From Steroidobacteraceae bacterium (GTDB lineage: Bacteria > Pseudomonadota > Gammaproteobacteria > Steroidobacterales > Steroidobacteraceae): 64,000 nt of DNA. Position 1 is the first letter of the stretch; each line of letters begins with the position of its first letter. Of this stretch, positions 1,241 to 53,578 are shown in pieces. Made by a program: the position numbers and the translations under genes. The notes below the pieces were generated by a model. The model was not told the origin of the DNA, ran no database searches, and saw only the letters and a list, made by a program, of their open reading frames with translations. Location of the stretch: the NCBI GenBank assembly GCA_025458905.1, contig JALORN010000024.1:1-64000 (forward strand), given 5' to 3'.

Positions 1241-1320
1241 GAAAAGGGGACAGATTTATTTTTCTGAAATCCAAAAATAAATCCGTCCCCTTTTTCAGAA
1301 AATAGATCTGTCCCCTTTTC
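1241..1320. repeat. dispersed GGGGACNGATTTATTTT repeat, locus 1 (three units, one inverted)
   Basis: Three units of the same element are packed here. One is on the plus strand (1241-1267, gaaaaggggacagatttatt...) and two are inverted (1273-1298 and about 1299-1320). Units 1 and 2 form an imperfect hairpin. The block starts five bases after the MaoC stop and ends exactly one base before the ATG of the following dehydrogenase. Its AT-rich composition stands out from the surrounding sequence. It resembles REP-like elements spread by RAYT-type transposases, but no transposase is in the window, so that link is inference. Confidence 0.85.
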
Positions 1321-2277
1321 ATGAAGGCGGTGTTTCTCGATTTCGAGACGGTGAGCGCGGGTGACCTGGACCCGGCGCGGCTGCTCCGTGCCGCACCGGG
1401 GCTGCAGCTGCTGGCGGCGACGCGGCAGGAGGAGGTCGCGGCGCGGATCGCGGGGCACGAGGTCGTGATCCTCAACAAGCTGCGGATCGACCGCGCGCTG
1501 ATCGCGGCGACGCCGACGCTGAAGCTCGTGGTGCTCGCCGCGACCGGCACCAACAACGTCGACCTCGAGGCGGCACGCGAGCATGGCGTCGCGGTCTGCA
1601 ACATCCGCGACTACTGCACGCCCTCGGTGGCGCAGCACGTGCTCGGCGCGATCCTCGCGCTGACGCACCGGACGGCGGAGTACTCGCGCGCCGCGGTCGA
1701 CGGCACCTGGGCCCGCAGCCGGCAGTTCACGGTGCTGGAGTGGCCGATCCGCGAGCTCGCGGGGCGCGTGCTCGGGGTCGTCGGCTGGGGCGTGCTCGGC
1801 CAGGCCGCCGCGCGCGCCTGCGAGGCGGCGCTCGGCATGCGGGTGCGGGTGGCGAACCGCGCCGGCGCGCCGCCGCAGGACGGCCGCGTCGACCTGCACG
1901 AGCTGCTGCCGCAGGTCGACGTGCTGACCCTGCACTGCCCGCTCACCCCGCAGACCACCGGACTGATCGGCGCGCGCGAGCTCGCGCTGATGAAGCACGA
2001 CGCGCTGCTGGTCAACACGGCGCGCGGCGCGCTGGTCGACCTCGAGGCATTGGCGACGGCACTGCGCACACGGCGGATCGGCGGCGCGGCGATCGACGTG
2101 CTGCCGCAGGAGCCGCCGGCCGACGGCAGCCCGCTGTTCGCGCCCGACCTGCCCAACCTGATCGTCACCCCGCACGTCGCCTGGGCCGCACGGGAATCGC
2201 GCCAGCGGTGCATCGACGAGATCGCGGCCAACGTCGAGGACTTCCGCGCCGGCGGACGGCGCGGGCGCGTCGCCTGA
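1321..2277 (+). CDS. D-2-hydroxyacid dehydrogenase (NAD(P)-dependent, glycerate/hydroxypyruvate-type)
   Basis: A 318-residue cytoplasmic oxidoreductase that interconverts a 2-oxoacid and a D-2-hydroxyacid. The Rossmann motif GWGVLG is at 155-160. The family's catalytic Arg, Glu and His are at R235 (NTARGALVD), E264 (LPQEPP) and H285 (TPHVAWA). The best relatives are glycerate or hydroxypyruvate reductases, but the substrate cannot be read from the sequence. The ATG is directly preceded by the repeat block, so no Shine-Dalgarno sequence is visible and the repeat must supply the 5' leader. A hairpin lies about 80 bp after the stop. Confidence 0.88.
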   Translation: MKAVFLDFETVSAGDLDPARLLRAAPGLQLLAATRQEEVAARIAGHEVVILNKLRIDRALIAATPTLKLVVLAATGTNNVDLEAAREHGVAVCNIRDYCTPSVAQHVLGAILALTHRTAEYSRAAVDGTWARSRQFTVLEWPIRELAGRVLGVVGWGVLGQAAARACEAALGMRVRVANRAGAPPQDGRVDLHELLPQVDVLTLHCPLTPQTTGLIGARELALMKHDALLVNTARGALVDLEALATALRTRRIGGAAIDVLPQEPPADGSPLFAPDLPNLIVTPHVAWAARESRQRCIDEIAANVEDFRAGGRRGRVA

Positions 2278-2356
2278 ACCTGGCGCGCGCGAGGGCGCCC
2301 ACCCGCGCCGCGCGCGCCGGGCGCCGGGCGCCGGGCGCCCACGCCATGAAACGCCG

Positions 2357-2388
2357 CGGGGGCCTCGCGTGCCACACGCAAGCCCCCG
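2357..2388 (+). terminator. terminator-like hairpin after the D-2-hydroxyacid dehydrogenase
   Basis: CGGGGGC at 2357-2363 pairs with GCCCCCG at 2382-2388, and an inner GCGTG/CACGC pair extends the stem. Only a weak T-containing tail follows, so intrinsic termination is possible but not certain. The rest of 2278-2488 is a gcgccgg-rich tandem-like stretch and the leader of the RND operon. Confidence 0.4.
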
Positions 2389-2488
2389 TCCTGTAAAGAA
2401 TTGCGAAGCGCGGCCCCGATGCGCCGCCTGACAGACAAACGCCATCGGGACGCCCTATCCTAGAGGACCGTCGCCACCGGCCCTCCCG

Positions 2489-3670
2489 ATGCCCCGCGCC
2501 CGTTCCCGACCCCGCCGTGCCCGCTTCCCGGCCCTGCTGCTCCTCGCCGGTGCGGTGGCGGGCCTCGCGGCCTGCTCGGAATCCCCCGAGCAGCTGGTGG
2601 GCAACGGCGGCCCGGGCGACCGGCCGATGAGCCGCAACCCACCGCCGGTCCCCGTCGTCACCACGGTGCCGGAGCGGCGCGCCTTCGGCGTCGAGATCGA
2701 GGCGGTCGGCACCGCGCTCGCCAACGAGTCGGTCGAGATCACCTCGAAGACCAGCAACACGGTGACCGCGATCCGGTTCCGCGAGGGCCAGGTCGTGCGC
2801 CGCGGCGCGGTGCTGGTCGAGCTCGACCGCTCGACCGTGGCCGCCGAGCTCGCCGAGGCCGAGGCGACGCTCGCCGACGCACGCAACCAGTTCAACCGCG
2901 GCCGCGACCTGTCGGTGACGCAGGCGCTGTCGAAGGCGCAGCTCGAGCAGCTCGAGACCGCGGTCAAGACCGCCGAGGCGCGCGTCGCCGCGGCGCGCGC
3001 GCGCTTCAACGACACCGTGATCCGCGCGCCGTTCGACGGCCGCACCGGCTTCCGCCGCGTGAGCCTCGGCGGCCTGGTCAATGCCGGCGCGGTGATCACC
3101 ACGCTCGACGACACCTCGGTGATCAAGCTCGAGTTCACGATGCCGCAGAGCTTCCTCAACGAGCTCGTGCCGGGCCTGCCGATCGAGGCGACGACGGAAG
3201 GGCTGCCCACCCGGGTGTTCGAGGGCAAGGTCACCACGATCGGCTCGCGCGTCGACGCCAACACGCGCTCGATCCCGGTGCGCGCCGAGCTGCCGAACCG
3301 CGACGGCGTGCTGCGACCCGGCATGTTCATGTCGGTGCGCGTCAAGGGGCGCGAGGCGCCGACGCTGATGCTGCCCGAGGAGGCGCTGGTGCCCGAGCAG
3401 GGCAAGACCTATGTCTACGTGGTCGCGGAGGGACGCGCCGCGCGGCGCGCGGTCCAGACCGGCGGCCGCGTGCCCGGCAGCGTCGCGGTGCTCGCCGGAC
3501 TCGAGCCGGGCGAGCGGGTGATCGTCGAGGGCACGCAGCGCGTGCGCGACGGCGCGCTGGTGGCCGAGGCGGCCCGCACCGCCGGCGGGGGCGATGCAAC
3601 GGCGACGGCCGATTCTGGAGCGGGTGCAGGCGCCGCCCGCGGCGAAGGCGCGCGGCGAACGGCGCCGTGA
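2489..3670 (+). CDS. RND efflux periplasmic adaptor (membrane fusion protein), lipoprotein
   Basis: A 393-residue adaptor that would link the inner-membrane RND pump to an outer-membrane channel. An N-terminal hydrophobic stretch ends in the lipobox GLAAC, with Cys29 as the likely lipidated residue. It is followed by barrel-sandwich/lipoyl halves (about 75-110 and 185-215), a coiled-coil hairpin (about 110-180, rich in AEAEATLADA-like sequence) and a beta-barrel domain. The tail after about 360 is low-complexity Ala/Gly. The pump gene starts 10 bp downstream. No outer-membrane factor gene is present, so the system probably borrows a TolC-type channel. Confidence 0.92.
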   Translation: MPRARSRPRRARFPALLLLAGAVAGLAACSESPEQLVGNGGPGDRPMSRNPPPVPVVTTVPERRAFGVEIEAVGTALANESVEITSKTSNTVTAIRFREGQVVRRGAVLVELDRSTVAAELAEAEATLADARNQFNRGRDLSVTQALSKAQLEQLETAVKTAEARVAAARARFNDTVIRAPFDGRTGFRRVSLGGLVNAGAVITTLDDTSVIKLEFTMPQSFLNELVPGLPIEATTEGLPTRVFEGKVTTIGSRVDANTRSIPVRAELPNRDGVLRPGMFMSVRVKGREAPTLMLPEEALVPEQGKTYVYVVAEGRAARRAVQTGGRVPGSVAVLAGLEPGERVIVEGTQRVRDGALVAEAARTAGGGDATATADSGAGAGAARGEGARRTAP

Positions 3671-3680
3671 ACGACTCGCC

Positions 3681-6600
3681 GTGAACATCTCGGAGTTCTG
3701 CATCCGCCGGCCCGTCTTCGCGACGGTGCTGAGCCTGTTGCTGGTGCTGTTCGGGCTGGTGGCGCTGCAGCGGCTCTCGGTGCGCGAGTACCCGGACATC
3801 ACGCGCCCGGTGGTGTCGATCACGACGATCTACCGCGGCGCCTCGGCGGCGGTGGTCGAGAACAAGATCACGCAGGCGATCGAGGACCGGATCGCCGGCA
3901 TCGAGGGCGTGCTCAAGCTCGAGTCCGACAGCGAGGACGAGCGCTCGAGCATCCGCATCGAGTTCGACGTCGAGCGCGACATCGACGCCGCGACCAACGA
4001 CGTGCGCGACCGCATCTCGCGGGTGATGGCGCAGCTGCCGCCGGAGGCCGAGCCGCCTCAGGTGATGAAGTCGGACGCGATGGCCGAGTCGGTGATGTTC
4101 CTGAGCTTCAACTCCGAGAACATGACGGAGCTCGAGGTCACGGACTACGCCGAGCGCTACATCGTCGACCGGCTCTCGGTGATCCCGGGCGTGGCGCGCG
4201 CCGCGCTCTCGGGCGGGCGGCGCGCGGCGATGCGCATCTGGATCGATCGCCAGGCGCTGGCGGCGCGCGCGCTCACCGTCGGCGACATCGAGAACGCGCT
4301 GCGGCGCGAGAACGTGATGCTGCCGGCCGGGCGGCTGGAATCGCGCACCCGCGAGTTCTCGCTGCGCACCGACGTCGGGCTCGACACCGAGGACGACTTC
4401 CGCAACCTCGCGATCGGCCGCGGCGCCGACGGCCACCTGGTGCGCCTCGGCGAGGTCGCCGACGTGCGGCTCGCGGCCGAGAACACCCGCTCGATGATGC
4501 GCACCAACGGCCGGCCCGGCGTCGGCATCGGCATCGAGGCGCAGTCGAAGGCCAACGTGCTGGAGATCGTCCGCGGGGTGCGCGCCGAAGCCGCGAAGCT
4601 GCAGGCCGAACTGCCACCGGGCGCCTCGCTGATGGTGAACGTCGACAACGGCGTGGCGATCGAGGCGGCGCTGCGCGAGGTGCTGATCGCGGTGGCGTTC
4701 GCGTTCGCGTCGGTGCTGCTGGTGATCTTCCTGTTCCTCGGCAACCTGCGCAGCACGCTGATCCCGGCGGTGACGATCCCGGTGTCGATCGTCGCGGCGT
4801 TCATGGCGATGTACCTGATGGGCTACTCGATCAACGTGCTGACCCTGCTCGGGGTGGTGCTGGCGATCGGCCTGGTGGTCGACGATGCGATCGTGGTGCT
4901 CGAGAACATCCACCGCCGCGCCGAGCTCGGCGAGGGCCCGGTGGTCGCCGCGGTCAACGGCAGCCGCGAGATCGGCTTCGCGGTGATCGCGACCACCGCC
5001 ACGCTGATCGCGGTGTTCGTGCCGATCTCCTTCCTGCCCGGCGACATCGGCCGGCTGTTCCGCGAGTTCGGCCTGACGCTGGCGGCCGCGGTCGCGTTCT
5101 CCTCGCTGATCGCGCTGACGCTGACGCCGATGATGGCGTCCCGGCTGCCGCCCACCGAGTCGATGCGGCCGAGCCGCTTCGCGGCGCGGGTCGAGCACTT
5201 CTTCGCCAGGCTCTCCGGCACCTACGAGGACAAGCTGCGGCAGGTGAACCGGCGGCCGTGGCTGATCGTGGCCGGGGTCGTGGTGCTGAGCGCGGCCGGT
5301 TTCCTCACCTTCCGCGCCCTGCCCTCCGAGTTCACGCCGAACGCCGACATCGGGCGGCTGTTCGTGTCGATGGAGGCGCCCGAGGGTGCGAGCTTCGAGT
5401 ACACGGAATCCTACGGGCGGCGGCTGGAGGAGATCGCGGCGCGCGAGGCGGAGAAGGGCGACATCAAGCGCGTCACGCTGCGCCTGCCGGGTGGCCTCGA
5501 CGGCAGCTCGGGCTCGGTCAACAACGCGCGCCTGATCATCACCATGGTCGACTGGCGCGAGCGCCAGCGCTCCACGCAGGACGTGGCGCGGGCGATCACC
5601 GACGACCTGCGCAAGCTGCCGGGCGTGCGCGCCAACGCCTCGGCGCCGGGCGGCCTGCGCGGCGGCTGGGGCTCGCCGATCGAGGCCGTGATCGGCGGCC
5701 CGGACTACGAGAAGCTCGCCGAGTGGTCGGCGAAGCTGACGCGCCTCGCCGAGCAGAACCCCGGCCTGGTCGCGGTGGAGAACAGCTACAAGCCGCGCAA
5801 GCCGCAGATCCGCGTCGCGATCGACCGCGACCGCGCGGCCGACCTCGGCGTCTCGCTGCAGACGGTCGGGCGCACGCTCGAGACGGTGCTCGGCTCGCGC
5901 ATCGTCACCACGTTCATCGACCGCGGCCGCGAGTACAACGTGATCCTGCAGGGCAAGGAGGACGAGCGTGCGACCGTCACCGACCTCACCAACCTGCAGG
6001 TGCGCTCGGACCGCACCGGCGAGCTGATCCCGCTGGCGAGCATCGTGCAGCTGAAGGAGACCGCCGCCGCGACCCAGCTGAGCCGCTTCAACCGGCAGCG
6101 CGCGGTCGAGATCAAGGCGGGCCTCGCCGAGGGCTACACGATGGGCGAGGCGGTGAAGTGGTTCGAGACGACGGCCCGCAAGGAACTGCCGGCCGGCGCG
6201 ACGCTGATGTGGGACGGCGAGTCCGGCGACTACGTGCGCAGCGGCGGCCAGCTCTACCTCACCTTCCTGTTCGCGGTGTTGATCGTGTTCCTGGTGCTGG
6301 CGGCGCAGTTCGAGAGCTTCGTGCACCCGGCGATCATCATGACCACGGTGCCGCTGGCGCTGCTCGGGGCGGTGTTCGGCCTCAAGGTGCAGGGCCTCAG
6401 CATCAACATCTTCAGCCAGATCGCGGTGATCATGCTGATCGGCATCGCGGCCAAGAACGGCGTTCTGATCGTGGAGTTCGCGAACCAGCTGCGCGACCGC
6501 GGCGTCGAGTTCGAGGAGGCGATCGTGAAGGCCGCCGCCACGCGCCTGCGGCCGGTGCTGATGACCAGCCTGTGCACCGCCTTCGGCGCGATCCCCTTCC

Positions 6601-6812
6601 TGTTCGCGAGCGGCGCGGGCGCCGAGCAGCGCCTGCCGATCGGCGTCGTGGTGTTCTACGGCACGCTGCTCTCGGTGCTGCTGACGCTGATCGTGGTGCC
6701 GGCGGTCTATTCGCTGGTCGCGCGGCGCACCAAGTCCACCCAGTACACGACGCGGCTGGTCGACCGGCTGCTCGGCACCGCCTCGCCGCCGCAGCCGACC
6801 GCGCGCGGCTGA
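3681..6812 (+). CDS. RND multidrug efflux permease, HAE1 family (AcrB/MexB type)
   Basis: A 1043-residue proton-driven inner-membrane pump of normal family length. The start is the GTG at 3681, giving the classic N-terminus (M)NISEFCIRRPVFATVLSLL; the frame stays open further upstream but would add a non-family Arg-rich leader inside the adaptor gene. The proton-relay acidic pair of TM4 is D401-D402 (GLVVDDAIVVLENIHRR), and the TM10 lysine is K925 (AAKNGVLIVEFANQ). Two large periplasmic loops separate TM1-TM2 and TM7-TM8. It forms an operon with the adaptor. Substrates cannot be inferred, and no local regulator gene is adjacent. Confidence 0.94.
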   Translation: MNISEFCIRRPVFATVLSLLLVLFGLVALQRLSVREYPDITRPVVSITTIYRGASAAVVENKITQAIEDRIAGIEGVLKLESDSEDERSSIRIEFDVERDIDAATNDVRDRISRVMAQLPPEAEPPQVMKSDAMAESVMFLSFNSENMTELEVTDYAERYIVDRLSVIPGVARAALSGGRRAAMRIWIDRQALAARALTVGDIENALRRENVMLPAGRLESRTREFSLRTDVGLDTEDDFRNLAIGRGADGHLVRLGEVADVRLAAENTRSMMRTNGRPGVGIGIEAQSKANVLEIVRGVRAEAAKLQAELPPGASLMVNVDNGVAIEAALREVLIAVAFAFASVLLVIFLFLGNLRSTLIPAVTIPVSIVAAFMAMYLMGYSINVLTLLGVVLAIGLVVDDAIVVLENIHRRAELGEGPVVAAVNGSREIGFAVIATTATLIAVFVPISFLPGDIGRLFREFGLTLAAAVAFSSLIALTLTPMMASRLPPTESMRPSRFAARVEHFFARLSGTYEDKLRQVNRRPWLIVAGVVVLSAAGFLTFRALPSEFTPNADIGRLFVSMEAPEGASFEYTESYGRRLEEIAAREAEKGDIKRVTLRLPGGLDGSSGSVNNARLIITMVDWRERQRSTQDVARAITDDLRKLPGVRANASAPGGLRGGWGSPIEAVIGGPDYEKLAEWSAKLTRLAEQNPGLVAVENSYKPRKPQIRVAIDRDRAADLGVSLQTVGRTLETVLGSRIVTTFIDRGREYNVILQGKEDERATVTDLTNLQVRSDRTGELIPLASIVQLKETAAATQLSRFNRQRAVEIKAGLAEGYTMGEAVKWFETTARKELPAGATLMWDGESGDYVRSGGQLYLTFLFAVLIVFLVLAAQFESFVHPAIIMTTVPLALLGAVFGLKVQGLSINIFSQIAVIMLIGIAAKNGVLIVEFANQLRDRGVEFEEAIVKAAATRLRPVLMTSLCTAFGAIPFLFASGAGAEQRLPIGVVVFYGTLLSVLLTLIVVPAVYSLVARRTKSTQYTTRLVDRLLGTASPPQPTARG

Positions 6813-6873
6813 GCGCGGCCGAGCGCGGGCGGCGCCATGGCGGTCGCCGAGGCACTTGGACGCGGCCCTCGGG

Positions 6874-6889
6874 CTGTATAAAATTACAG
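6874..6889. promoter_or_regulatory. LexA (SOS) box, CTGT-N8-ACAG
   Basis: The sequence CTGTATAAAATTACAG matches the gamma/betaproteobacterial LexA consensus CTGT-N8-ACAG exactly, including the AT-rich spacer, in a region that is otherwise very GC-rich. It ends two bases before the ATG of the radical SAM gene. A repressor bound here would block the promoter or start of the DNA-repair pair. The position implies a transcript with almost no leader, or that the box overlaps the promoter core. Confidence 0.75.
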
Positions 6890-6891
6890 CC

Positions 6892-8208
6892 ATGGACATG
6901 CAGACAGTGCCTGCGATCGAGGACTCCACCCCGGGTGGCGAGGCCGCGGCGACGGCGCGGGCCCCCTGGATCCGCCAGGCGCTCGACCTGCGGGGCAAGC
7001 TCGCGCTGCTGGCCGATGCCGCGAAGTACGACGCCTCCTGCGCCTCGAGCGGCACGACGCGACGCGACTCGCGCAGCGGCGGTCTCGGCTCGGCCGGCGG
7101 CATGGGCATCTGTCATTCCTATGCGCCCGACGGCCGCTGCATCTCGCTGCTGAAGGTGCTGCTGACGAACTACTGCGAGTTCGACTGTCGCTTCTGCATC
7201 AACCGGCGCAGCAGCGACGTGCCGCGGGCGCGCTTCACCGAGCGCGAGCTGGTCGACCTGACGCTCGACTTCTACCGGCGCAACTACATCGAGGGGCTGT
7301 TCCTGTCGTCGGGCATCGTGCGCAGCCCCGACTACACGATGGCGCGGATGGTCGGCGTGGTGCGCGAGCTGCGCACGGTCCACGACTTCCGCGGCTACAT
7401 CCACCTGAAGACCATCCCGGGCGCGGACCCGGCGCTGGTCGAGGAGGCCGGGCGCCATGCCGACCGCTTGTCGATCAACGTCGAGCTGCCGGAGGCCGAG
7501 AGCCTCGCGCGGCTCGCGCCGGAGAAGGACGCCGCCGGGATCGAGCGTGCCATGGCGGGCATCGGCACGGCGATCGCCGAGAACCGCGACTCGCGCGCAC
7601 GCCACCGGCACGCGCCGCGCTTCGCACCCGCCGGCCAGAGCACGCAGATGATCGTCGGCGCCGACGCCGCGACCGACGCGACGGTGCTCGCGCGCAGCAG
7701 CACGCTGTACCGCAGCCATGCGCTGCGGCGCGTCTACTACTCGGCCTACAGCCCGATCCCGGACCCGAGCGACGCGCTGCCGTCGCGACCCGCGCCGCTG
7801 GTGCGCGAGCACCGCCTCTACCAGGCGGACTGGCTGCTGCGCTTCTACGGCTACAGCCTGCCCGAGGTCGTCGACGCGACCCGCGACGGGATGCTCGACC
7901 TGCGGATCGACCCGAAGCTCGCCTGGGCGCTGCGCCATCCGGAGCGCTTCCCGGTGGACGTCAACCGCGCGCCGCGCGAGCTGCTGCTGCGGGTGCCGGG
8001 GCTCGGCGTGCGCGGGGTCGAGCGGCTGCTGCGGATGCGCCGCCTGCAGCGCGTGCGGCTCGCGCACCTCGCGACGCTCGGCGTTTCGCTGGCCAAGATC
8101 CAGCCGTTCGTCTGCGCGGGCGACTGGCAGCCGCGCGCGCAGGCGGCAGGCCTCGCGCGCCGGCTCGCGGAAGCGGACGGCACCGCACAGCTCCCGCTGG
8201 CGCTGTGA
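6892..8208 (+). CDS. putative DNA modification/repair radical SAM protein (rSAM_link_UDG family)
   Basis: A 438-residue radical SAM enzyme of the family that accompanies a UdgX-type protein; its reaction is unknown. The FeS-binding motif is C95-x3-C99-x2-C102 (NYCEFDCRFCINRRSSD). A helix-hairpin-helix DNA-binding region lies near 354-385 (VDVNRAPRELLLRVPGLGVRGVE). The ATG at 6892 was chosen because it follows the LexA-type box; the frame extends upstream to 6856, but that start would place the box inside the gene. The stop overlaps the GTG of the next gene by four bases, a strong sign of co-translation. SOS control is inferred from the box. Confidence 0.9.
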   Translation: MDMQTVPAIEDSTPGGEAAATARAPWIRQALDLRGKLALLADAAKYDASCASSGTTRRDSRSGGLGSAGGMGICHSYAPDGRCISLLKVLLTNYCEFDCRFCINRRSSDVPRARFTERELVDLTLDFYRRNYIEGLFLSSGIVRSPDYTMARMVGVVRELRTVHDFRGYIHLKTIPGADPALVEEAGRHADRLSINVELPEAESLARLAPEKDAAGIERAMAGIGTAIAENRDSRARHRHAPRFAPAGQSTQMIVGADAATDATVLARSSTLYRSHALRRVYYSAYSPIPDPSDALPSRPAPLVREHRLYQADWLLRFYGYSLPEVVDATRDGMLDLRIDPKLAWALRHPERFPVDVNRAPRELLLRVPGLGVRGVERLLRMRRLQRVRLAHLATLGVSLAKIQPFVCAGDWQPRAQAAGLARRLAEADGTAQLPLAL

Positions 8209-9683
8209 ATCCCGTGGGCATCGCCCCGCGGCGGCCGGCCTCGCGTGTCGTGCGCGCCGCACCCGGCGGTCCGGTCCGCGTCACGCTGCAGCGCGCGTCC
8301 GACGCGGCCGAGTGGCGCGATGCGGCCCGGCGCCTGCTCGCGCAGGACACGGACCCGGCGAGGGTCGAGTGGCAGGACGCAGCGGCCGCGCAGGCCTCGC
8401 TGTTCACCACCGGCGACCCGGCGACGGACGCCGCGCCCGTCGTCGCGGACGCCGGTGCGGATCCCTGGCCCTGGCCGGCGCCGTTCGGCGCGCTCGCTCG
8501 CCGCGTGCTCTGCCACCGCGAGCCGGGGCGCCACGCGCTGCTCTACCGCGTCGCGTGGCGGCTGCGCCGCGAACCGCGCCTGCTCGACCTCGCGGCGGAC
8601 CCCGACGTGGCGCGCCTGCACGCGCTGGATCGCGAGGTGCGGCGCGCGGCGCACAAGATGAAGGCGTTCGTGCGCTTCCGGAAGCGGTCCGACGCCGACG
8701 TCTACGTCGCGTGGTTCGACCCGGGCCATCCGCTGCTGCACGCGCTGGCGCGTTTCTTCGTCGGCCGCTTCGCGAGCCTGCGCTGGATCATCGTCACGCC
8801 GGACGCGAGCGCGAGCTGGGACGGCGAGCGCCTCGCGTTCGGCCCGGGCGCGCCGCGGCCCGCAGCTCCCGCCGCCGATCCTTGCGAGGACCTGTGGCGC
8901 ACCTACTACGCGAGCATCTTCAATCCCGCCCGCCTGAAGCTGCGTGCGATGCGGCGCGAGATGCCGCGCCGCTACTGGCGCGACCTGCCGGAAGCGGTGC
9001 TGATCCCGCAGCTCGCCGCGGACGCGACGCGGCGCACGGCCGCGATGCTCGAGGCCGATGCGACCCTCGGGGTGCGCGCGGCGGCGGCGCGCTGCGGGAC
9101 GCTCGACGCGCTCGCCGCGGCCGTGCAGGCCTGCCGTGCCTGCCCTGTCGGCTGCCGCGGCACGCGCGCGGTCGCGGGCGAAGGCCCGAGCGGCGCACGC
9201 CTGATGCTGGTCGGCGAGCAGCCGGGGGACGCCGAGGAGCACGCGGGACGACCGTTCGTGGGGCCCGCGGGCGCGGTGCTGCAGCAGGCGCTGGACGCGG
9301 CCGGGGTGCGGCGCGACGACGCCTACCTCACCAACGCCGTGAAGCACTTCGGGTTCCAGCAGCGGCAGGGACGGCGGCTGCACCGCAGCCCGGACCGCCG
9401 CACGATCGAGCATTGCCGCTGGTGGCTGCTGCGCGAGCGCGAGCTGGTCGAGCCGGTGGCGGTGGTCGCGCTCGGTCGCACGGCCCTCGCGGCCCTGCTC
9501 GGGCCGGATGTGGCGCGCGAGGCCGCGGGCTCGCGCGCGCCGGTGACCACCCACGAGACGAGCGGCGGCCGCGTGATCGCGACGCGCCACCCGGCGCACG
9601 TGCTGCGGGCCGGGGATGCCGCGGCGCGCGCCGAGTCGTACGCTGCGATCGTCGCCGCGCTGCGCACCGCGGCCGGACGCTGA
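8205..9683 (+). CDS. DUF4130 - UdgX-like uracil-DNA glycosylase fusion
   Basis: A 492-residue two-domain protein. Residues about 20-290 are the DUF4130 (TIGR03915-like) domain always linked to the preceding radical SAM family. Residues about 310-490 are a UDG-superfamily domain of UdgX type, with GEQPG at 337-341, an upstream C-x2-C (ACRACPVGC) and a further Cys in IEHC for an FeS cluster. His393 lies in GRRLH, matching the KRRIH-type loop whose His forms a covalent bond with uracil-derived DNA in characterised UdgX. The start is a GTG overlapping the upstream TGA. The gene ends one base short of the convergent kinase gene. Covalent trapping activity is inferred from the motif. Confidence 0.9.
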   Translation: MNPVGIAPRRPASRVVRAAPGGPVRVTLQRASDAAEWRDAARRLLAQDTDPARVEWQDAAAAQASLFTTGDPATDAAPVVADAGADPWPWPAPFGALARRVLCHREPGRHALLYRVAWRLRREPRLLDLAADPDVARLHALDREVRRAAHKMKAFVRFRKRSDADVYVAWFDPGHPLLHALARFFVGRFASLRWIIVTPDASASWDGERLAFGPGAPRPAAPAADPCEDLWRTYYASIFNPARLKLRAMRREMPRRYWRDLPEAVLIPQLAADATRRTAAMLEADATLGVRAAAARCGTLDALAAAVQACRACPVGCRGTRAVAGEGPSGARLMLVGEQPGDAEEHAGRPFVGPAGAVLQQALDAAGVRRDDAYLTNAVKHFGFQQRQGRRLHRSPDRRTIEHCRWWLLRERELVEPVAVVALGRTALAALLGPDVAREAAGSRAPVTTHETSGGRVIATRHPAHVLRAGDAAARAESYAAIVAALRTAAGR

Positions 9684-9684
9684 G

Positions 9685-12027
9685 TCAGCCGCCGACCGCG
9701 GCGGCCGCGGCCGGGCCGCCCGGCAGCCCGCGCAGGATCGCCTCAATCAGCTCCTCCGGATCGACGGGCTTGGTCAGGTGCTCGTCGATGCCTGCGTCGC
9801 GGCTGCGTGCCCGGTCGACCTCCTGGCCCCAGCCGGTCACGGCGATCAGGCGCATGTCGCGACCCCAGGTCTCGGCGCGCAGGCGGCGGGCGACGTCGTG
9901 GCCGTTCATCAGCGGCAGGCCGAGGTCGAGCAGCGCGACGTCGGGGCGCATCAACTCGGCGATCTCGACGGCGGTGCGGCCGTCGTAGGCGACGCGGGTG
10001 TCGAAGCCCGCGAGCCGCAGCATCTGGGCGAGCGAATCGGCGGCGTCGACGTTGTCGTCGACCACCAGCAGCCGCCTGGCGCGGGCGCCGAGCGTGGCGA
10101 TGCGCTCCGGCCCGGCGAGCGGGGCGACGACGGCCTGGGGTTGCGCGACGGCGCGCGGCAGGCGCAGGACGAACTCGCTGCCGTGGCCGCGCCCGCCGCT
10201 GGTGGCCGAGAGGCTGCCGCCATGCAGCGCCGCGAGCTGCCGTGCCAGCGACAGCCCGATGCCGAGGCCGCCGGTCGGGCCGCTGCTGCGCTCGCCCTGC
10301 ACGAAGGGGTCGAAGATCCGTGGCAGCAGCTCCGGCGGGATGCCGATGCCGTCGTCGCGCACGCGCACCACGACTTCCTCGGTGCCGTCGCTGCCCCGCT
10401 CGAGACCCGCGCGCACGGTGATGCGGCCGCCGGCGGGCGTGAAGCGCACCGCATTGCTCAGCAGGTTGCCGATCACCTGTACCAGGCGGGTGGAGTCGCC
10501 GTCGACGGTCAATGGCGCGGCCGGCAGGTGCACGTCGATGCCGTGCCCGGCAGCCTCGGCGAGTGGCTGGGCGGCCTCGACGGCCGATTCGACCAGGGGC
10601 CGCAGGTCGAGCACGCTGCGGCGCAGCTCGAGCGCGCCACGCGTGACGCGCGACACGTCGAGCAGGTCGTCGAGCAGGCGCGACATGTGCGCGAGCTGCC
10701 GGTCGATCATCCGCCGCGCGTCGGCGAGCAGCGGCGCCGGGGTGTTGGGCCGGAACACGTAGCTGGCGTAGCGGATCGGCGCGAGCGGGTTGCGCAGCTC
10801 GTGCGCGAGCGTCGCGATGAACTCGTCCTTGCGGCGGCTCGCCTCGCGCAGCTCCTCCTCGAGCGCGCGGCGGTGGGTGACGTCGTTGACGACGGCCACC
10901 CAGCCCTCGACCGTGCCGTCGCGCGCGACCACCGGCGTGTAGGCAGCGTGGATCCAGCGCGGGCCGATCGTCCTGAAGTTCACGGACTCCTCGAACTCGA
11001 ACGACTCGCCGGCCAGCGCACGCTCGAGATGCGGCTTCAGGCGCGCGAAGCCGCCCTCGCCGATCACCTCGACGATCGGCACGCCGCGCAACTCGTCGAT
11101 GCCGCGACCGACCCAGGCGAGGTAGGCGCGGTTCGCCCACACGTAGCGATGCTGGCGATCGCCGCGCACGACGCCCGTGGTCATCAGGCCGGTGACCAGC
11201 TCGAGCTCTTCGCGCGCCCGGGCGTGCGCCCGCTCGGCGGCACGGCGGCGGCTCACGTCGAGGTTGAACCCGGCCCAGGACTCGATCGAGCCGTCCGCGG
11301 CCCGCAGCGCGACGCCGCGGCTCCAGATGGTGCGCACCGAACCGTCGGCGCCGGCGGCGTCGAACTCCCAGTCGAAATCCTCGCCGGTGCGGCAGCAACG
11401 CTCCCAGCGGGCCCTGGCCTCGGCGATCCGCTCGGGTGGCTCGACGAGGTTCGAGTGCCAGTCGCCGCCGGTCCACTGCTCGAAGGTACGGCCGAGGAAG
11501 TTCAGCAGCCGCGGACTCACGAAGGTGACCCGGCCGGTCGCATCGCCGCTCCACATGCCGAAGTCGAAGGCCTCGCCGACGGTGCGGTAGCGCCGCTCGC
11601 TGCTCGCGAGCGCCTCGCGGGTCGCGGTCTGCTCGGCGAGCGAGCGCCGCAGCGAGGCCTCGCGCTGGTGCACGCGGCGCACCAGCAGGACGATGCCGGC
11701 GCAGATGGCGACGAAGAACACGAGTTCGACGGCGTCCTTGCCGCCGGCGGCGAGCAGGGTGCCGCGCGGCTCGACGAACATCCAGTTGCCACCGAGGAAG
11801 CCGAGCACGGCGACGGCGACCGCCGGGACGACGCCGAGGAACCAGCCGACGACCCCCACCGCGAGGTAGATGGTGCCGAACGGGTAGCGCAACCCGAGCA
11901 CGGGATCGAGCGCGAGGCGCAGCACGAGCGCAGCGGCGAGCAGCGTTCCGGCGAGTGCCCAGGCCTGCCAGGACCCCCGCGGGGTCGTGAGATTCACTGG
12001 ATCGTTCCCCGTCGATGCGCGCGACAC
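9685..12027 (-). CDS. hybrid sensor histidine kinase/response regulator (DUF4118, PAS-PAS, HisKA, HATPase, REC)
   Basis: A 780-residue membrane sensor. The N-terminal transmembrane segments (about 20-115) resemble the DUF4118 module of KdpD-like kinases. Two PAS domains (about 145-265 and 275-385) precede the phospho-acceptor His409 in ATLAHELRNPLAPI. The HATPase N and G boxes follow (NLLSNAVRF, DDGIGIP, GLGIGLSLA), then a C-terminal receiver with Asp701 in LLDLGLPLMNG. No separate output regulator is adjacent, so the phosphate presumably passes to a distant partner. The GTG at 12027 has a gaagg upstream; a second GTG at 11997 with ggggaa is an equally plausible start. Confidence 0.92.
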   Translation of the reverse strand: MSRASTGNDPVNLTTPRGSWQAWALAGTLLAAALVLRLALDPVLGLRYPFGTIYLAVGVVGWFLGVVPAVAVAVLGFLGGNWMFVEPRGTLLAAGGKDAVELVFFVAICAGIVLLVRRVHQREASLRRSLAEQTATREALASSERRYRTVGEAFDFGMWSGDATGRVTFVSPRLLNFLGRTFEQWTGGDWHSNLVEPPERIAEARARWERCCRTGEDFDWEFDAAGADGSVRTIWSRGVALRAADGSIESWAGFNLDVSRRRAAERAHARAREELELVTGLMTTGVVRGDRQHRYVWANRAYLAWVGRGIDELRGVPIVEVIGEGGFARLKPHLERALAGESFEFEESVNFRTIGPRWIHAAYTPVVARDGTVEGWVAVVNDVTHRRALEEELREASRRKDEFIATLAHELRNPLAPIRYASYVFRPNTPAPLLADARRMIDRQLAHMSRLLDDLLDVSRVTRGALELRRSVLDLRPLVESAVEAAQPLAEAAGHGIDVHLPAAPLTVDGDSTRLVQVIGNLLSNAVRFTPAGGRITVRAGLERGSDGTEEVVVRVRDDGIGIPPELLPRIFDPFVQGERSSGPTGGLGIGLSLARQLAALHGGSLSATSGGRGHGSEFVLRLPRAVAQPQAVVAPLAGPERIATLGARARRLLVVDDNVDAADSLAQMLRLAGFDTRVAYDGRTAVEIAELMRPDVALLDLGLPLMNGHDVARRLRAETWGRDMRLIAVTGWGQEVDRARSRDAGIDEHLTKPVDPEELIEAILRGLPGGPAAAAAVGG

Positions 12028-12096
12028 GCTCGCGCCTTCGTGTCCCGCACTGCCCGGGCCCGGGGCGATGATCGCAGAGCACGCGGGCCCGGCTCT

Positions 12097-12112
12097 GTAG
12101 GCATCCGCCTAC
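12097..12112. promoter_or_regulatory. 16-bp inverted repeat in the histidine kinase/ada divergent region
   Basis: GTAGGC-ATCC-GCCTAC is a perfect 6-bp-arm inverted repeat in the 178-bp region between the divergent kinase and ada genes. It could be an operator or a small hairpin in the leader of either gene. Nothing else recognisable was found in 12028-12205. Confidence 0.3.
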
Positions 12113-12205
12113 TCGCGCGGCAGAATTCGACAGCAAGAAGCGGATGGCGGCCGCCGTGGCGCGGACCGACGATGTCGTTGCGCTCCGTCACCCGCGAGCA
12201 GGACC

Positions 12206-13396: not shown

Positions 13397-13455
13397 ATCC
13401 GTCCCCTTTTTCCAATCCGTCTCCGTCCCCTTTTTCCAATCCGTCCCCTTTTTCG
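13322..13455. repeat. dispersed GGGGACNGATTTATTTT repeat, locus 2 (nested inverted cluster between ada and the Anbu gene)
   Basis: Several AAAAAGGGGACGGATT units are arranged as two long inverted arms, with an extra unit on the right (to 13455). The left arm runs inside the ada reading frame and codes for its C-terminal tail. The right end touches the stop codon of the convergent peptidase gene (13456-13458). Poly-T/poly-A tracts and long complementary arms mean it could also serve as a bidirectional terminator. Confidence 0.85.
13328..13421. repeat. 94-bp perfect palindrome within repeat locus 2
   Basis: Reading outwards from the central CCATGG (13372-13377), every base pairs up to 13328 and 13421, giving 47-bp arms without a spacer. 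The core CCGGGATCGGGTCC and its complement are not part of the common repeat unit. The outer arms are two GGGGACGGATT units. Palindromes this long are usually unstable in vivo, which makes its survival notable. Confidence 0.85.
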
Positions 13456-14190: not shown

Positions 14191-14288
14191 GCCCGATTCT
14201 ACTTCCGGGCCTGCCGCTGCTGCATCTGGCGCGGCGTCGGCACCGCGTCTCGGCGATGCGCCGGCGGGCATGCATGGCCCTTGCGGCT

Positions 14289-14762: not shown

Positions 14763-14776
14763 CGGCGGCGCGGGCG

Positions 14777-15139
14777 CTACCAGATCTTGCCGCCGATGTA
14801 CTTCCCGGCGGCGGGCAGGTGCGGGAAGTACTCGACGGACTCGAAGGCGCCGGCCTGGTAGAAGGGGTCGTTCTCGATGATCTCGCGCGCGCGCGCCAGG
14901 CTGCGGGTGTGCAGCAGGTAGAGGCTGCCGACCGTGTGCTTGCCCGAGTCGTCGAACAGCGGGCCGGCGACGTTGAGGTCGCCGAGCACGGTCTCGATGT
15001 AGGCGAGGTGCGCCTGGGTGGCCGAGGCGCGCGCCGCGGCGCCGTTCGGCCCGTCGCGGCAGACCACGACGTACGCGGTGCTCTCGTAGGGCTGGCGGGA
15101 GGTCCTCGGTGCCTGGCCGGCGGTGTCGTGGGCGCTCAT
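14777..15139 (-). CDS. YciI-family protein
   Basis: A 120-residue small ferredoxin-like alpha/beta-barrel protein. The YCII signature is visible: AYVVVCRDGPNG, then AHLAYIE, then SLYLLHTRSLARAREIIENDPFYQAGAFESVEYFPH. The conserved His and Asp of the family (in AHLAYIE and ENDPF) suggest an unknown enzymatic role; no reaction is established for most members. It lies upstream of the NUDIX gene on the same strand and divergent from oxyR. Confidence 0.85.
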   Translation of the reverse strand: MSAHDTAGQAPRTSRQPYESTAYVVVCRDGPNGAAARASATQAHLAYIETVLGDLNVAGPLFDDSGKHTVGSLYLLHTRSLARAREIIENDPFYQAGAFESVEYFPHLPAAGKYIGGKIW

Positions 15140-15300: not shown

Positions 15301-15319
15301 GATCCGGGAAAGGCTGCGG

Positions 15320-48958: not shown

Positions 48959-50605
48959 ATGATGCCGCGACGCACTGCCACGCTCCTGCGCGCCTGTGCC
49001 GCGCTGCTGCTGCTCTCGCTCGGGCTCGCCGCGCAGGGGGCACGCGCCGACGAGACCTGCGGCCGCTTCGGCGGCACGCCTGGGCAGCCGAACCCGCCCG
49101 AGGTGGCGGCGATCCTCGACCAGTTCCTGAGGATCCCCGACGCGCCCACGGTGATCACCGCGATCGAGTCGGTGCCGGCCGCCGGCACGCTGCCGGCCTA
49201 CTGCCGCTTCAAGGGCACGATCGCGCCGCAGGTCAACTTCGAGCTGCGGCTGCCGGTCGAGTGGAACGGCAAGTTCCTGATGCAGGGCTGCGGCGGCATG
49301 TGCGGCTGGCTGAACCTCGGCGCGGCCGAGGATTCGCTCGAGAAGCGCTACGCGGTGGTCAACACCGACATGGGCCACTCCGGCCCGCCCTCGGTGGCGC
49401 TGTGGGCGCTCGACAACCGCGCCGCCGAGCTCGACTTCGCCTACCGCGCGACCTGGACCACGGCGGTGGCCGCGAAGCGCATCGCCGAGGCCTTCTACGG
49501 CGCGGCGCCGAAGCGTTCGTACTTCAACGGCTGTTCGACCGGCGGGCGCCAGGGGATGCTGGCCGCACAGCGCTTCCCCGAGCTGTTCGACGGCATCATC
49601 TCGGGGGCGCCGGTGCTCAACCAGACCGGTACCGCGATGCTGCACCTGCTGTGGTCGGCGCGCGCGAACGTCGGCGCCGATGGCAAGCCGATCCTGAACA
49701 CCGCGCAGCTGAAGCTGGTCCACGACCGGGTGATCGCGGCCTGCGACCGCCTGGATGGCGTCGCGGACGGCCTGATCCCGGACCCGCGATTTTGCGGCTT
49801 CCGGGTCGAGACGCTCGCCTGCCGCGCGGGCACGAGCGGCGCCGACTGCCTGGGCCCCGCCGAGATCGGCGCGCTGCGCAAGCTCTACGACGGCGCGAGC
49901 AATTCCAGCGGCCGGCTCGCCTGGGCCGGCGGCGGCGGACTGCCGCTCGGCTCCGAGTACACCTGGTCGCCGGTGTTCGTGAACGAGGCCGGCAAGCACG
50001 GCGCGATCATCGCCGCGCCGTCGATGATCAGCCAGATCCTGCAGGCCAAGGTCTTCTACCGCGACCCCGGCCCCGGGATCTCGGTGACGGACTTCGACTT
50101 CGAGCGCGACCCGCCGCGGCTCGCACTGACGGAGGCGTTCTACAACGCGCAGAACCCGGACCTGCGGCGTTTCAAGGCGCGCGGCGGCAAGCTGCTGCTC
50201 TACCACGGCTGGGACGACACCGAGGTGACGCCCGGCAACACGGTCGACTACTACGAGACCGCGACCCGAACGATGGGCGGACCGGAGGCGACGCGCGACT
50301 TCTTCCGCCTCTTCATGGTGCCGGGCATGGGCCACTGCCGTCGCGGCAACGGCGCCGACGCGATCGACTACCTCGATGCGCTCGAGCGCTGGGTCGAGCA
50401 GGGCGAGGCGCCCGCGAAGCTGGTGGCGCACAAGCTCGTCAAGGAGCAGTCCTACCTCGGCCTGCCGCGGCCGCGTTTCCCGCTGAAGCCCGAGGAGTAC
50501 CAGTGGCGACGCCCGGTGTTCGCCTATCCGGACGTCGCGGTGTACGCCGGCAAGGGCGACCCGAACGACCCGGCCAGCTGGCAACCCCGCCGCCTCCAAA
50601 AATAG
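48959..50605 (+). CDS. tannase/feruloyl esterase family hydrolase, secreted
   Basis: A 548-residue esterase likely cleaving an aromatic (gallate, ferulate or similar) ester outside the cytoplasm. A Sec signal peptide (LLRACAALLLLSLGLAAQGARA) is followed by the tannase fold. The nucleophile is Ser193 in FNGCSTGGRQGM; the acid and base are probably in HGWDDTEVTPGN and PGMGHCRRG. Two ATGs lie in tandem at the start. The stop TAG lies inside a decayed repeat. It follows the GPH transporter by 29 bp. Confidence 0.88.
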   Translation: MMPRRTATLLRACAALLLLSLGLAAQGARADETCGRFGGTPGQPNPPEVAAILDQFLRIPDAPTVITAIESVPAAGTLPAYCRFKGTIAPQVNFELRLPVEWNGKFLMQGCGGMCGWLNLGAAEDSLEKRYAVVNTDMGHSGPPSVALWALDNRAAELDFAYRATWTTAVAAKRIAEAFYGAAPKRSYFNGCSTGGRQGMLAAQRFPELFDGIISGAPVLNQTGTAMLHLLWSARANVGADGKPILNTAQLKLVHDRVIAACDRLDGVADGLIPDPRFCGFRVETLACRAGTSGADCLGPAEIGALRKLYDGASNSSGRLAWAGGGGLPLGSEYTWSPVFVNEAGKHGAIIAAPSMISQILQAKVFYRDPGPGISVTDFDFERDPPRLALTEAFYNAQNPDLRRFKARGGKLLLYHGWDDTEVTPGNTVDYYETATRTMGGPEATRDFFRLFMVPGMGHCRRGNGADAIDYLDALERWVEQGEAPAKLVAHKLVKEQSYLGLPRPRFPLKPEEYQWRRPVFAYPDVAVYAGKGDPNDPASWQPRRLQK

Positions 50606-50632
50606 ATCAGATTTATTTTCGGATTTTTTTTC
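50597..50632. repeat. dispersed repeat, locus 4 (decayed, missing its GGGGAC cores)
   Basis: AAAAATAGATC is directly joined to AGATTTATTTTC. These are the outer parts of two inverted repeat units whose GGGGAC cores have been lost. The tannase stop codon lies within the left part, and the serine hydrolase ATG follows at 50636. The AT-rich island is conspicuous in this background. Confidence 0.6.
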
Positions 50633-50635: not shown

Positions 50636-52009
50636 ATGAAGTCGATCGGTTCTTGTCTTCTGGCCGGGCTGCTGGTCAACGCAAGCGCGGCGGGACAGCC
50701 TTCCGTGCCCGCCGTCTCGCCGGCGGCGCCACCGGTGGCGACGCCGACGTTCGTGGTCGATGTCACGGGCCGTTTCTCGGCGGCGGAGGACGCGCTGTAC
50801 CAGCGGCGTCTCGACCTGCGCGCGCGGACGCTGGCCGACTTCGAGACCTACGACACCGTCGAGCCGGTGCCTGGCGCCGCGCGACACCGCCCGCTGCCGG
50901 CGGCCACGGCGCGCTCACGCTCGATCGCGCCGCAGGCGCTCGACGCGGCCGCGGCCTACGCGGCGTCGATGCCCTCGAGCGCGCTGTTCGTCTGGCACCG
51001 TGAGCGCCTGCAGCTCGAGCGCCACTTCGGCGGCCGTGCGCCGCAGGACCCGATCCTCGGCCGCTCGCTTGCCAAGCCGCTGGCCGCGATCGCGATCGGC
51101 CGCGCGATCGCGCTCGGGCGCATCCGCTCGCTCGAGCAGCCGGTCGCGGAGCTGCTGCCGGAGTGGCGCGGCGACCCGCGCCGCTCGCGGATCCGCATCC
51201 ACCACCTGCTCGATGGCACGGCGGGCTTCCTGCCACAGGGCTTCAGCGTGCGACGCGAGGACGTACTGAACCTCGCCTTCCTGCACCCGCGGCACGACGA
51301 GATCATCGTGCACGACTACCCGGTCGTCGCCGAGCCCGGCAGCGAGTTCTCGTACAACAACGCGCAGTTCGACCTGGTGGCCGTGCTGGTCGAGCGCGCC
51401 ACCGGCCGCCGCTACCACGAGTTCGTCGGCGAGGAGTTGCTGCGGCCGATCGGCGCCGCGGGCGGCGAGGTCTGGGTCAACCGCCCGGGCGGCGTCGCGC
51501 ACGCGGGATGCTGCATCCAGCTCCCGCCCGAGACCTGGCTGCGGCTCGGCGTGCTGCTCGCGCAGGACGGCCAGTGGAGCGGCCGGCGCCTGCTGCCGCG
51601 AGGCTTCGTCGCACGGATGGCCACCGGCACCCCGGCGAATCCGCATTACGGCCTCGGCGTCTACGTCGCCGGCCCCTACGTCGAGCGTCGCGGCTGGGCC
51701 GGCCCGCAGCGCACGCCCCCCGCGCTGCAGGTGCTGCACTCCGAACCCTACCTCGCCCGCGACCTCTTCCTGTTCGACGGCAACGGCAATCAGGTGATGT
51801 ACATCGTGCCGTCGGAACGCCTCGTGATCCTGCGTACCGGCACGGGCCCGAAGCGGCCGCTCGAGTGGGACAACAGCCGGTTGCCGAACGTGCTGATGCG
51901 CGGCATCAGGCGCACAACGGGCGAGCAGCCGCTCGTACCGCAGGCGCGACGCCAGCCCGGGATCGCGTCAGACGCCGAAGAAGAGGTAGTCGACCGCCGC
52001 CAGCAGTAG
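50636..52009 (+). CDS. serine hydrolase, beta-lactamase-like (family S12)
   Basis: A 457-residue exported hydrolase of the penicillin-binding protein-like/esterase group. A signal peptide (SIGSCLLAGLLVNASAAG) precedes the domain. The S-x-x-K motif is Ser144-Leu-Ala-Lys147 (LGRSLAKPLAA), and FSYNNAQFD supplies the Y-x-N element. It follows the tannase gene by 30 bp and may be part of the same unit. The last ~14 residues (about 51968-52009) are encoded antisense to the end of ccdB, so the C-terminus was probably altered when ccdAB arrived. Confidence 0.85.
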   Translation: MKSIGSCLLAGLLVNASAAGQPSVPAVSPAAPPVATPTFVVDVTGRFSAAEDALYQRRLDLRARTLADFETYDTVEPVPGAARHRPLPAATARSRSIAPQALDAAAAYAASMPSSALFVWHRERLQLERHFGGRAPQDPILGRSLAKPLAAIAIGRAIALGRIRSLEQPVAELLPEWRGDPRRSRIRIHHLLDGTAGFLPQGFSVRREDVLNLAFLHPRHDEIIVHDYPVVAEPGSEFSYNNAQFDLVAVLVERATGRRYHEFVGEELLRPIGAAGGEVWVNRPGGVAHAGCCIQLPPETWLRLGVLLAQDGQWSGRRLLPRGFVARMATGTPANPHYGLGVYVAGPYVERRGWAGPQRTPPALQVLHSEPYLARDLFLFDGNGNQVMYIVPSERLVILRTGTGPKRPLEWDNSRLPNVLMRGIRRTTGEQPLVPQARRQPGIASDAEEEVVDRRQQ

Positions 52010-52282: not shown

Positions 52283-52541
52283 CGTCCCGGTCGTAGTGCG
52301 TGCGGACGAGTTCGGCGAAGTCGCCATGCCGGCTGGCGTACTCGTCGACGGCAGCGAGGTCCCGCTGGATCTCGGCCTTGATCGTCTCGGCGCGCTTCCT
52401 GGAATACGCCTCGGCGACGGCCTGCTCGGCTACCTGCGAAACGTTGATCCCGGCGCGCTTCGCCTTGGCATAGAGGTCGGAATTGACGGTGATGCTCACC
52501 GTCTGCTTGGAGGCCTCTCGCTCGAAGAGGGAATCGCGCAT
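52269..52541 (-). CDS. ccdA: CcdA-family antitoxin
   Basis: A 90-residue antitoxin. The N-terminal ribbon-helix-helix (KQTVSITVNSDLYAKAKRAGINVSQVAEQAV) would bind the operator, and the C-terminal half (RKRAETIKAEIQRDLAAVDEYASRHGDFAELV) would wrap CcdB. It precedes and overlaps ccdB, and normally represses the operon. Only 33 bp separate it from the lipoprotein gene upstream, so the promoter must lie in or near that gene. Confidence 0.88.
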   Translation of the reverse strand: MRDSLFEREASKQTVSITVNSDLYAKAKRAGINVSQVAEQAVAEAYSRKRAETIKAEIQRDLAAVDEYASRHGDFAELVRTHYDRDDGAV

Positions 52542-52574
52542 CGAAAGCGACCCGTGTCGAAATACACGGGTAAT

Positions 52575-53507
52575 CTACCCATGCCCGGAAACCTCGTCCA
52601 GCCCCAGTCCAGCGGCGCTCCCTTCGGCCAGCGCCTGCCGCAGCCACTCCCACCCCTTGCGCAGCGCCAGGATGCCGGAAGCCGAGCCGCCGATGGTGCG
52701 GATCCGGAACCCCATCGGTCGGTGCCCGGGGTCGGTCCAGAGGTCAAAGTCCAGCCGGAACGTGCCGCCGTCCGGGAGCGGCAGCAGTTCGACGAAGGAG
52801 AAGTGCCGGATCGGCGTCTCGCGGCCGGCGGGATCGCGCAGCCGGCGCTCTCCGTGGTAGCTGAGGCGCGAGCGGCCGCCGGACAGCGTGCGCACCCGGT
52901 CGAGGTCCTGGCCGACCCAGCGGAACTCCTGCTCGCCGCCGCGCGCGAAGTCGTAGTGTCGCGTCATGACGAACATTGCGGTGGCGCTCGGCGACATGTT
53001 GACGAAGCAATCCGGATCGCAGCTCGCCGACGTCGTGGACGCTCCGGCGCCAGAGCCCGACAGCGGATGCACGTCGATCGCCACCGCCATGCCCCGCACC
53101 TGCATCGCGATCGCCACCGGCTGCCCGTCGTAGAGCCCGACGCCGTGCGCAGACAGCGAACGCCAGGCCGCATCGAGGTCGAACCGTGCCTGCACGCGGT
53201 AGGCACCGCTGGCCGCCGTGATGTTGTTCAGCAGCGTGTAGCCGCCGTCGGGACGCTGCAGGTACTCGAAGACTTCCTCGCGGTCGAACGGTCCACCGCC
53301 GGTGACGACCAGCGCGCCGCTGTCGAGCAGGCGTGCACCGCGGACTCCCGCGTAGAGAGTCGACTCGGCGCGGGCCACGGGCAACGGCGTGGACAGGCAG
53401 CCGGCGACCACCGTGAGCGCGATGGCGCTACCGACGATCGCAACTGCCGATGCGACGCGAAGCAGCACGGCTACGACCCCCCTGTGTGGAGAAGACCCCG
53501 AAGCCAT
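52575..53507 (-). CDS. predicted lipoprotein of unknown function
   Basis: A 310-residue protein that I do not recognise. The N-terminus has a hydrophobic core (LLRVASAVAIVGSAIALTVVAGC) ending in a plausible lipobox. The mature region is beta-rich, with FDREEVFEYLQRPDGGYTLLNNITAASGAYRVQARF and EFRWVGQDLDRVRTLSGGRSRLSYHGER, and two Cys in SCDPDCF. It reads towards ccdAB on the same strand. A repeat locus separates it from mcr. Confidence 0.6.
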   Translation of the reverse strand: MASGSSPHRGVVAVLLRVASAVAIVGSAIALTVVAGCLSTPLPVARAESTLYAGVRGARLLDSGALVVTGGGPFDREEVFEYLQRPDGGYTLLNNITAASGAYRVQARFDLDAAWRSLSAHGVGLYDGQPVAIAMQVRGMAVAIDVHPLSGSGAGASTTSASCDPDCFVNMSPSATAMFVMTRHYDFARGGEQEFRWVGQDLDRVRTLSGGRSRLSYHGERRLRDPAGRETPIRHFSFVELLPLPDGGTFRLDFDLWTDPGHRPMGFRIRTIGGSASGILALRKGWEWLRQALAEGSAAGLGLDEVSGHG

Positions 53508-53531
53508 CCCGTCTCGCGCAGAAGAATCCGC

Positions 53532-53578
53532 AAAAAATAAATCCGTCCCCTTTTCAAAAACAAATCCGTCCCCTTTTC
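53532..53578. repeat. dispersed repeat, locus 5 (two direct units at the mcr stop)
   Basis: Two direct units, about 53532-53555 and 53556-53578, read TGAAAAGGGGACGGATTT on the minus strand. The mcr stop TGA (minus strand, 53577-53579) is the first three bases of the terminal unit, so the repeat begins exactly at the end of mcr. The second unit has a C in the AT-rich part (caaat). Confidence 0.85.

Follow-up and report, generated by a model that had tools for sequence, protein, structure and literature searches.

The window analyzed here is a stretch of 64,000 nucleotides (nt) from a Steroidobacteraceae bacterium (contig JALORN010000024.1, positions 1 to 64,000 of the forward strand). It carries a short dispersed repeat, the unit GGGGACNGATTTATTTT in direct reading (also written (A)AAAAGGGGACNGATTTATTTT), close to the stop codons of several genes. 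With up to 3 mismatches allowed, the window contains eight matches to the unit, where shuffled sequences are expected to give 0.02, and Rfam had no match anywhere in the window. The dispersed repeat that an earlier note had reported from this DNA extends through the whole genome. In the source genome (label G000), a draft of 4,276,071 bases in 109 contigs that is 85.8% complete, 153 matches were counted at no more than 1 mismatch (4.28 Mb), while the reversed pattern used as a control gave 0. Positions refer to the first 100 of the 153 matches, and the cluster analyses rest on the loci covering those 100.

Locus 1 is an 80-nt element at positions 1241-1320, between the stop codon of the MaoC gene (TGA, 1233-1235) and the ATG of the next gene at 1321. 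By pattern match its units were placed at 1246-1262 (+), 1274-1290 (-), and 1299-1315 (-). The stop codon lies 5 nt ahead of the start of the palindrome and 10 nt ahead of the first unit; at the other edge the palindrome abuts the ATG, as had been noted earlier. Locus 2 is a long palindrome at 13322-13455, between Ada and a convergent gene (13456-14190, -) that ends at its foot. It has units at 13343-13359 (+) and 13390-13406 (-), shortened outer unit copies on both sides and a core (13360-13389) that is a perfect palindrome. The open reading frame of Ada extends across the first arm and the core as far as a TAA (13394-13396, +) in the second arm, with about 24 residues encoded by the element (13322-13396). 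As RNA, loci 1 and 2 were found to fold better than all of 200 shuffles each (z -7.3 and -13.2, respectively).

Locus 3 is a single unit at 19995-20011 (-), located 6 nt past the photolyase stop codon (TAG, 19986-19988). The gene 53577-57308 (-) ends 3 nt from locus 5, which consists of two tandem units at 53534-53550 (-) and 53557-53573 (-). At locus 4 (50597-50632) only the AT-rich halves AAAATAGATC and AGATTTATTTT are found, and there was no unit match in the window scan at up to 3 mismatches. Since it lacks GGGGAC it is at most a remnant, and the tannase stop codon (TAG, 50603-50605) lies inside it. The unit is thus shared by loci 1, 2, 3, and 5 of the five loci listed in the earlier note. 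The stop codons lie at the places given in the earlier note or, for Ada and tannase, within element sequence.

The Transposase Gene and Its Repeats

A profile search of the 85.8%-complete genome gave one match to PF01797, the transposase P0001 (Pfam E 1.2e-13). The NCBIfam model REP_Tyr_transpos scored 65.9 bits, below its cut-off of 80, and a sequence search of the PDB with P0001 gave no match at E 0.001. P0001 has 234 residues and contains the motifs NHVH, WE, and YVELNP. Its gene, on L034, sits between inverted unit pairs at 3238-3281 and 4037-4125. A Y1 transposase flanked by the unit, which the earlier note had proposed to look for, is therefore present.

P0001 resembles TnpAY1 subclass 2.1, equivalent to group 1 of Bertels, which is characterized by NHVH, W[EQ], and Y[IV]ELNP, a length of about 238 residues, and flanking GGGG[AT][CG]A[CG] repeats like those found here (Quentin et al., 2018; PMC6006769, in the sections on this subclass). 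The same sections describe a large class, present in 14.9% of strains, with a C-terminal helix-turn-helix-like domain and no REP-like sequences near the genes (REP, repetitive extragenic palindrome). Here, in contrast, a dispersed repeat population is present, and Pfam gave no such domain; the protein has an AT-hook-like GRP tail instead. GRP was found within the last 60 residues in 65 of 68 full-length relatives and resembles an AT hook, the Pfam AT_hook model giving E 0.016 in one of four proteins. Judged from its sequence, this tail may read the AT-rich part of the unit.

The repeat is the terminal inverted repeat (TIR) of a TIRYT-type Y1 (HUH) transposase. GGGGACAG agrees with the TIR motif GGGGWSAS, and the variant GGGGACGG departs from it at the seventh letter. 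Strictly speaking it is no REP: the single unit GGGGACNGATTTATTTT is not self-complementary and has no GTAG or CGTC foot, and thus differs in its end sequence from the GTAG/CGTC REPs as these are described in parts of Nunvar et al. (2010; PMC2817692) and Di Nocera et al. (2013; PMC3733652). From the "REP-like mobile element" of the earlier note we therefore retain the transposase-linked dispersed repeat and drop the REP assignment.

The match between gene and end was also found in other bacteria. The best 80 loci (L187-L266) of a GTDB genome scan for transposase relatives were used, and 12 of these were left out because they had no full-length frame of 200-300 residues. NHVH was present in 55 and Y[IV]ELNP in 58 of the 68 relatives. 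Inverted repeats detected de novo beside the gene were AAAAGGGGACAGATTTATTTT or nearly so in Geobacteraceae, Desulfuromonadales, Pseudomonas, Scalindua, Thalassospira, Smithella, and others; transposase relatives with this unit class at their flanks span at least three phyla. The class was found on both sides of 25 of the 68 full-length genes and on at least one side of 35, and in none of 115 control windows. In a 72-protein tree, where five of the 68 without a repeat class were unlabelled, the repeat class needed 7 changes against 21.8 in shuffles, and none of 500 shuffles was as low. Exact inverted pairs were present in eight of 25 relatives' genomes searched, with 1-5 in each; the population in G000 is large by comparison.

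Within the family Steroidobacteraceae the unit was found in seven of 100 genomes and some relative of P0001 (E 0.001) in 32. All five genomes with relatives above 220 bits belong to the seven with the unit, and in G010, G017, and G028 the close relative is likewise flanked by inverted units. Neither the unit nor a close transposase relative was found in six congeners drawn. The survey undercounts, since the search pattern misses unit variants: G048, a congener of G010, scored one hit yet carries a GGGGTC form. Its pairs (L350-L355) are of the same kind with GGGGTCAGATCTATTTT, a one-letter change of the unit, and adjoin a transposase that shares 54% identity with P0001. In G010 further Y1 paralogues (L105, L102) are flanked by their own inverted repeats, GGGTGCCGGGTG... 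and TAGCGGTGCCGGG..., and repeats of the paralogue type also frame some unit pairs (L098, L099).

Arrangement and Position of the Units

Most units are the arms of palindromes that consist of an A run, GGGGAC.GATTTATTTT, a core, the inverted copy and a T run; single units without a partner, such as locus 3, also exist. The arms were letter-identical in 20 of the 35 dimers measured in G000. Core lengths ranged from 5 to 61 nt, with 28-41 nt in 21 of the 35 dimers, and perfect arms of at least 10 nt were found in 17 of 26 cores of at least 25 nt. In G010 the core was 35-45 nt long in 23 of 27 dimers, and the core ends were complementary by 2-8 nt in 11 of the first 12 cores, a sum that none of 5000 random draws reached. 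Folded as RNA, many pairs form a long hairpin that is preceded by an A tract and followed by a U tract on both strands, and in GTCCCC-TTTTT the T tract follows directly after the stem.

In nested arrays of the form ++...-- the mirrored spacers were identical in 14 of 14 cases (11 in G000, 3 in G010); the outer units were equal in all 14 and the inner units in 10. This symmetric nesting suggests insertion at palindrome centers. Some REP dimers also sit inside palindromes, as stated in parts of Di Nocera et al. (2013; PMC3733652). In eight loci of G010 (L091, L093, L103, L336, L339, L342, L343, and L348) unit pairs were observed to be centrally nested in pairs of a second family, GGGGACATGCCTATTT, the entire nested block being common to L343 and L348. 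Four sets of G000 contig ends (C41/C90, C49/C80, C67/C27, and C77/C39) lie inside palindromes and apparently represent two halves each, and long palindromes of the unit family seem to break assemblies.

REPINs, as far as the relevant sections of Bertels and Rainey (2011; PMC3116915) describe them, are likewise inverted doublets; their ends are conserved, the spacer is less so but matters through its length and pairing, and compensatory changes and a linked tyrosine transposase are found. The ends found here differ in not being GTAG-tagged REP hairpins, and the unit itself is non-palindromic. The population behaves like a REPIN, is no REP, and agrees with the TIRYTs in those features that were tested.

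A simple gene caller based on codon usage was applied to place 60 clusters, defined with up to 2 mismatches, relative to genes. Placement was not random, in line with the gene-end association drawn earlier from five loci: 23 clusters lay between convergent genes, 24 between same-strand genes, none between divergent genes, 2 inside a predicted gene, and 11 at contig edges, where a few look like halves of one palindrome. With the lengths of the intergenic gaps of the window as background, only 48 in number, the probability was 9e-7 for the divergent and 5e-12 for the convergent class. Among the 57 clusters having a gene directed towards them, the nearest stop codon was within 12 nt in 44. Same-strand clusters, of which 22 of 24 were used after leaving out two beside the transposase gene, lay within 12 nt of the upstream stop codon in 19 cases, and where a gap of at least 50 nt remained 12 of 13 were nearer the stop than the start. 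Similar placement is described for the GTAG/CGTC REPs in parts of Di Nocera et al. (2013; PMC3733652), with REPs between convergent genes mostly no more than 20 bp from both 3' ends and same-strand REPs close to the upstream 3' end. The bias may reflect targeting of gene ends or selection against insertions elsewhere, though the symmetric nesting points to insertion at palindrome centers.

Origin and Spread of the Repeat Population

The elements were found to be absent at orthologous sites in congeners. In 11 of 11 aligned congeners the orthologous site lacks locus 1; the left stop codon there is in the same place (by eye), and the flanks join without a duplicated target. The element of L041 is absent in four of four congeners and that of L050 in 19 of 19. 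For junction L038 three congeners were fetched, of which two could not be joined and one had a 132-nt junction. Of four loci compared between G017 and G037, two have no element in G037; at the other two the element is present in both genomes, with all core letters alike (10 of 10 and 22 of 22).

The cores were compared between copies. In a narrower sample 12 G010 and 23 G000 cores were found only at their own place or, where two contigs divide a palindrome, in its other half. The pattern used for this sample does not cover a G010 subfamily with a TTTA end, in which cores are shared. A wider G010 sample showed block copies, and the idea that cores are unique at every locus was rejected. In this sample six of 25 cores had a relative, the best pair being identical in 39 of 40 letters and others in 32 of 40 and 28 of 37. 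In G000 seven of 32 cores had a relative, some of them via shared unit letters. Given the block copies in G010 a new copying mechanism is not required, though most cores are unrelated. Cores are also shared in the Pseudomonas genomes, there among clusters within a few kb, which makes them an unfair contrast to dispersed copies. Other sources of the cores were considered and rejected. The core at L050 has no similarity to 19 empty junctions, which argues against pre-existing host DNA, and a 9-letter match of the L041 core to one congener (by eye) was taken as chance. One exact 22-mer from each of six of 25 G010 cores gave no match to viral contigs, a weak argument against captured phage DNA as only exact matches were covered. 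Hypermutation of the cores finds no support, given the two G017/G037 elements that keep theirs.

Altogether, we consider it probable, at about 0.8, that the unit is the end of a single-copy TIRYT Y1 transposase, spread as non-autonomous inverted pairs that survive behind stop codons. Spread would occur mainly as a unit, a core often 28-41 nt long and an inverted unit. Such a pair would fold into a hairpin on the lagging-strand template, and the transposase would recognize and cut the unit on single-stranded DNA. The hairpin would then be pasted without target duplication, preferably into the center of an existing palindrome, and insertions would persist almost exclusively in the narrow gap that follows a stop codon.

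Several observations weigh against this reading. No movement has been seen, and the evidence that the transposase mobilizes the repeats is indirect, namely the empty sites in congeners and the block copies. For most cores no relative was detected (25 of 32 in G000, 19 of 25 in G010, and seven of seven in G048), so that plain block copying would need much core drift. A fifth locus shared by G017 and G037 (L290 and L283) has differing cores (by eye), and in a further nested array, L336, one spacer letter differs (by eye). The unit-bearing genomes G037 and G060 hold only distant transposase relatives (best 96.8 and 101.7 bits). Finally, Pfam searches of four proteins at E up to 10 gave no C-terminal helix-turn-helix, only Y1_Tnp and in one protein a weak AT_hook.

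The hairpins with A/T tracts at both feet could plausibly act as bidirectional terminators; the earlier note had raised a putative terminator or mRNA-stabilizer role. A less probable explanation is that the elements are intrinsic terminators under selection, each hairpin with its U tract being kept for ending transcription and mobility being secondary. The 23 convergent and 24 same-strand against 0 divergent of 60 clusters would be expected from this, as would the very stable folds at loci 1 and 2 and the T tracts that follow the stem immediately on both strands. It leaves unexplained the tie to one transposase gene and the absence from the six congeners drawn; unpaired single units such as locus 3 occur, and a consensus scan of positions 1-20000 gave four terminator-like sites where 3.8 were expected, with loci 1 and 2 not among them, although its stem and loop limits may exclude these. 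A combined scenario appears doubtful, in which pairs inserted into palindrome centers, chiefly of terminators, and the selfish end thereby took over termination, and at some loci the stop codon, at dozens of junctions.

The mirror symmetry and the locus-specific cores could also arise if each copy were built anew, a one-armed unit landing and the strand folding back to copy the arm. The 14 of 14 mirrored spacers, the complementary ends of 11 of the first 12 G010 cores, and the 23 G000 and 12 G010 cores without a second copy elsewhere agree with this. We nevertheless regard it as unlikely, since block copies exist (39 of 40, 32 of 40, and 28 of 37 core letters), the L050 core is no closer to the 19 empty junctions than chance (288 of 300 shuffled cores do as well), and fold-back alone fails to predict the tight core length in G010. 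A short near-exact unit, often in inverted pairs at gene ends, also resembles a DNA uptake signal spread by natural transformation. DNA uptake signals also lie within genes, while only two of the 60 clusters do. As the unit moreover flanks one transposase gene, tracks its tree across phyla and is patchy in the family (seven of 100 genomes), this origin is highly improbable.

The best reading of the repeat as a transposase end spread in pairs is that it represents a new and abundant case within a known type of miniature mobile DNA, a TIRtron population. In the available parts of Di Nocera et al. (2013; PMC3733652), a Y1 gene between inverted repeats unrelated to GTAG REPs is described for TIRtrons, as are the motif GGGGWSAS, which GGGGACAG fits, and repeats dispersed as singles, dimers, and clusters, as observed here (60 clusters, 35 dimers measured). 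Our case differs in the 153 matches in one genome, the letter-mirrored nested palindromes, and the strong gene-end bias. TIR families are termed moderately abundant in the same parts of that study, the richest strain being Stenotrophomonas maltophilia K279a, and no abundance record is claimed here. The exact letters of the unit were absent from the literature searched; among the papers listed there, only Di Nocera et al. (2013) and Quentin et al. (2018) contain any of the terms TIRYT, TIRtron, and GGGGWSAS. The end of one subclass-2.1-like gene is thus present in at least 153 copies in a single draft genome, and end and enzyme match across phyla. This makes the unit and the transposase a defined enzyme-substrate pair for cleavage tests, and a natural setting in which to ask why elements of this type come to rest behind stop codons.

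Neighboring Genes

The names given to the window genes in the earlier note were backed by Pfam for MaoC, Ada, photolyase, and tannase; a 2-hydroxyacid dehydrogenase was supported as well. The gene 13456-14190 (-), named Anbu, had no Pfam match at E 1e-5. The gene 53577-57308 (-), named Mcr, encodes a protein of 1243 residues for which only short-chain dehydrogenase-type domains were found, in two stretches. In L283 (G037) and L290 (G017) a candidate cobalamin-riboswitch-like stretch (by eye) is bracketed by unit pairs. Directly past locus 4, the gene 50636-52009 (+) encodes a Beta-lactamase-family domain (PF00144).

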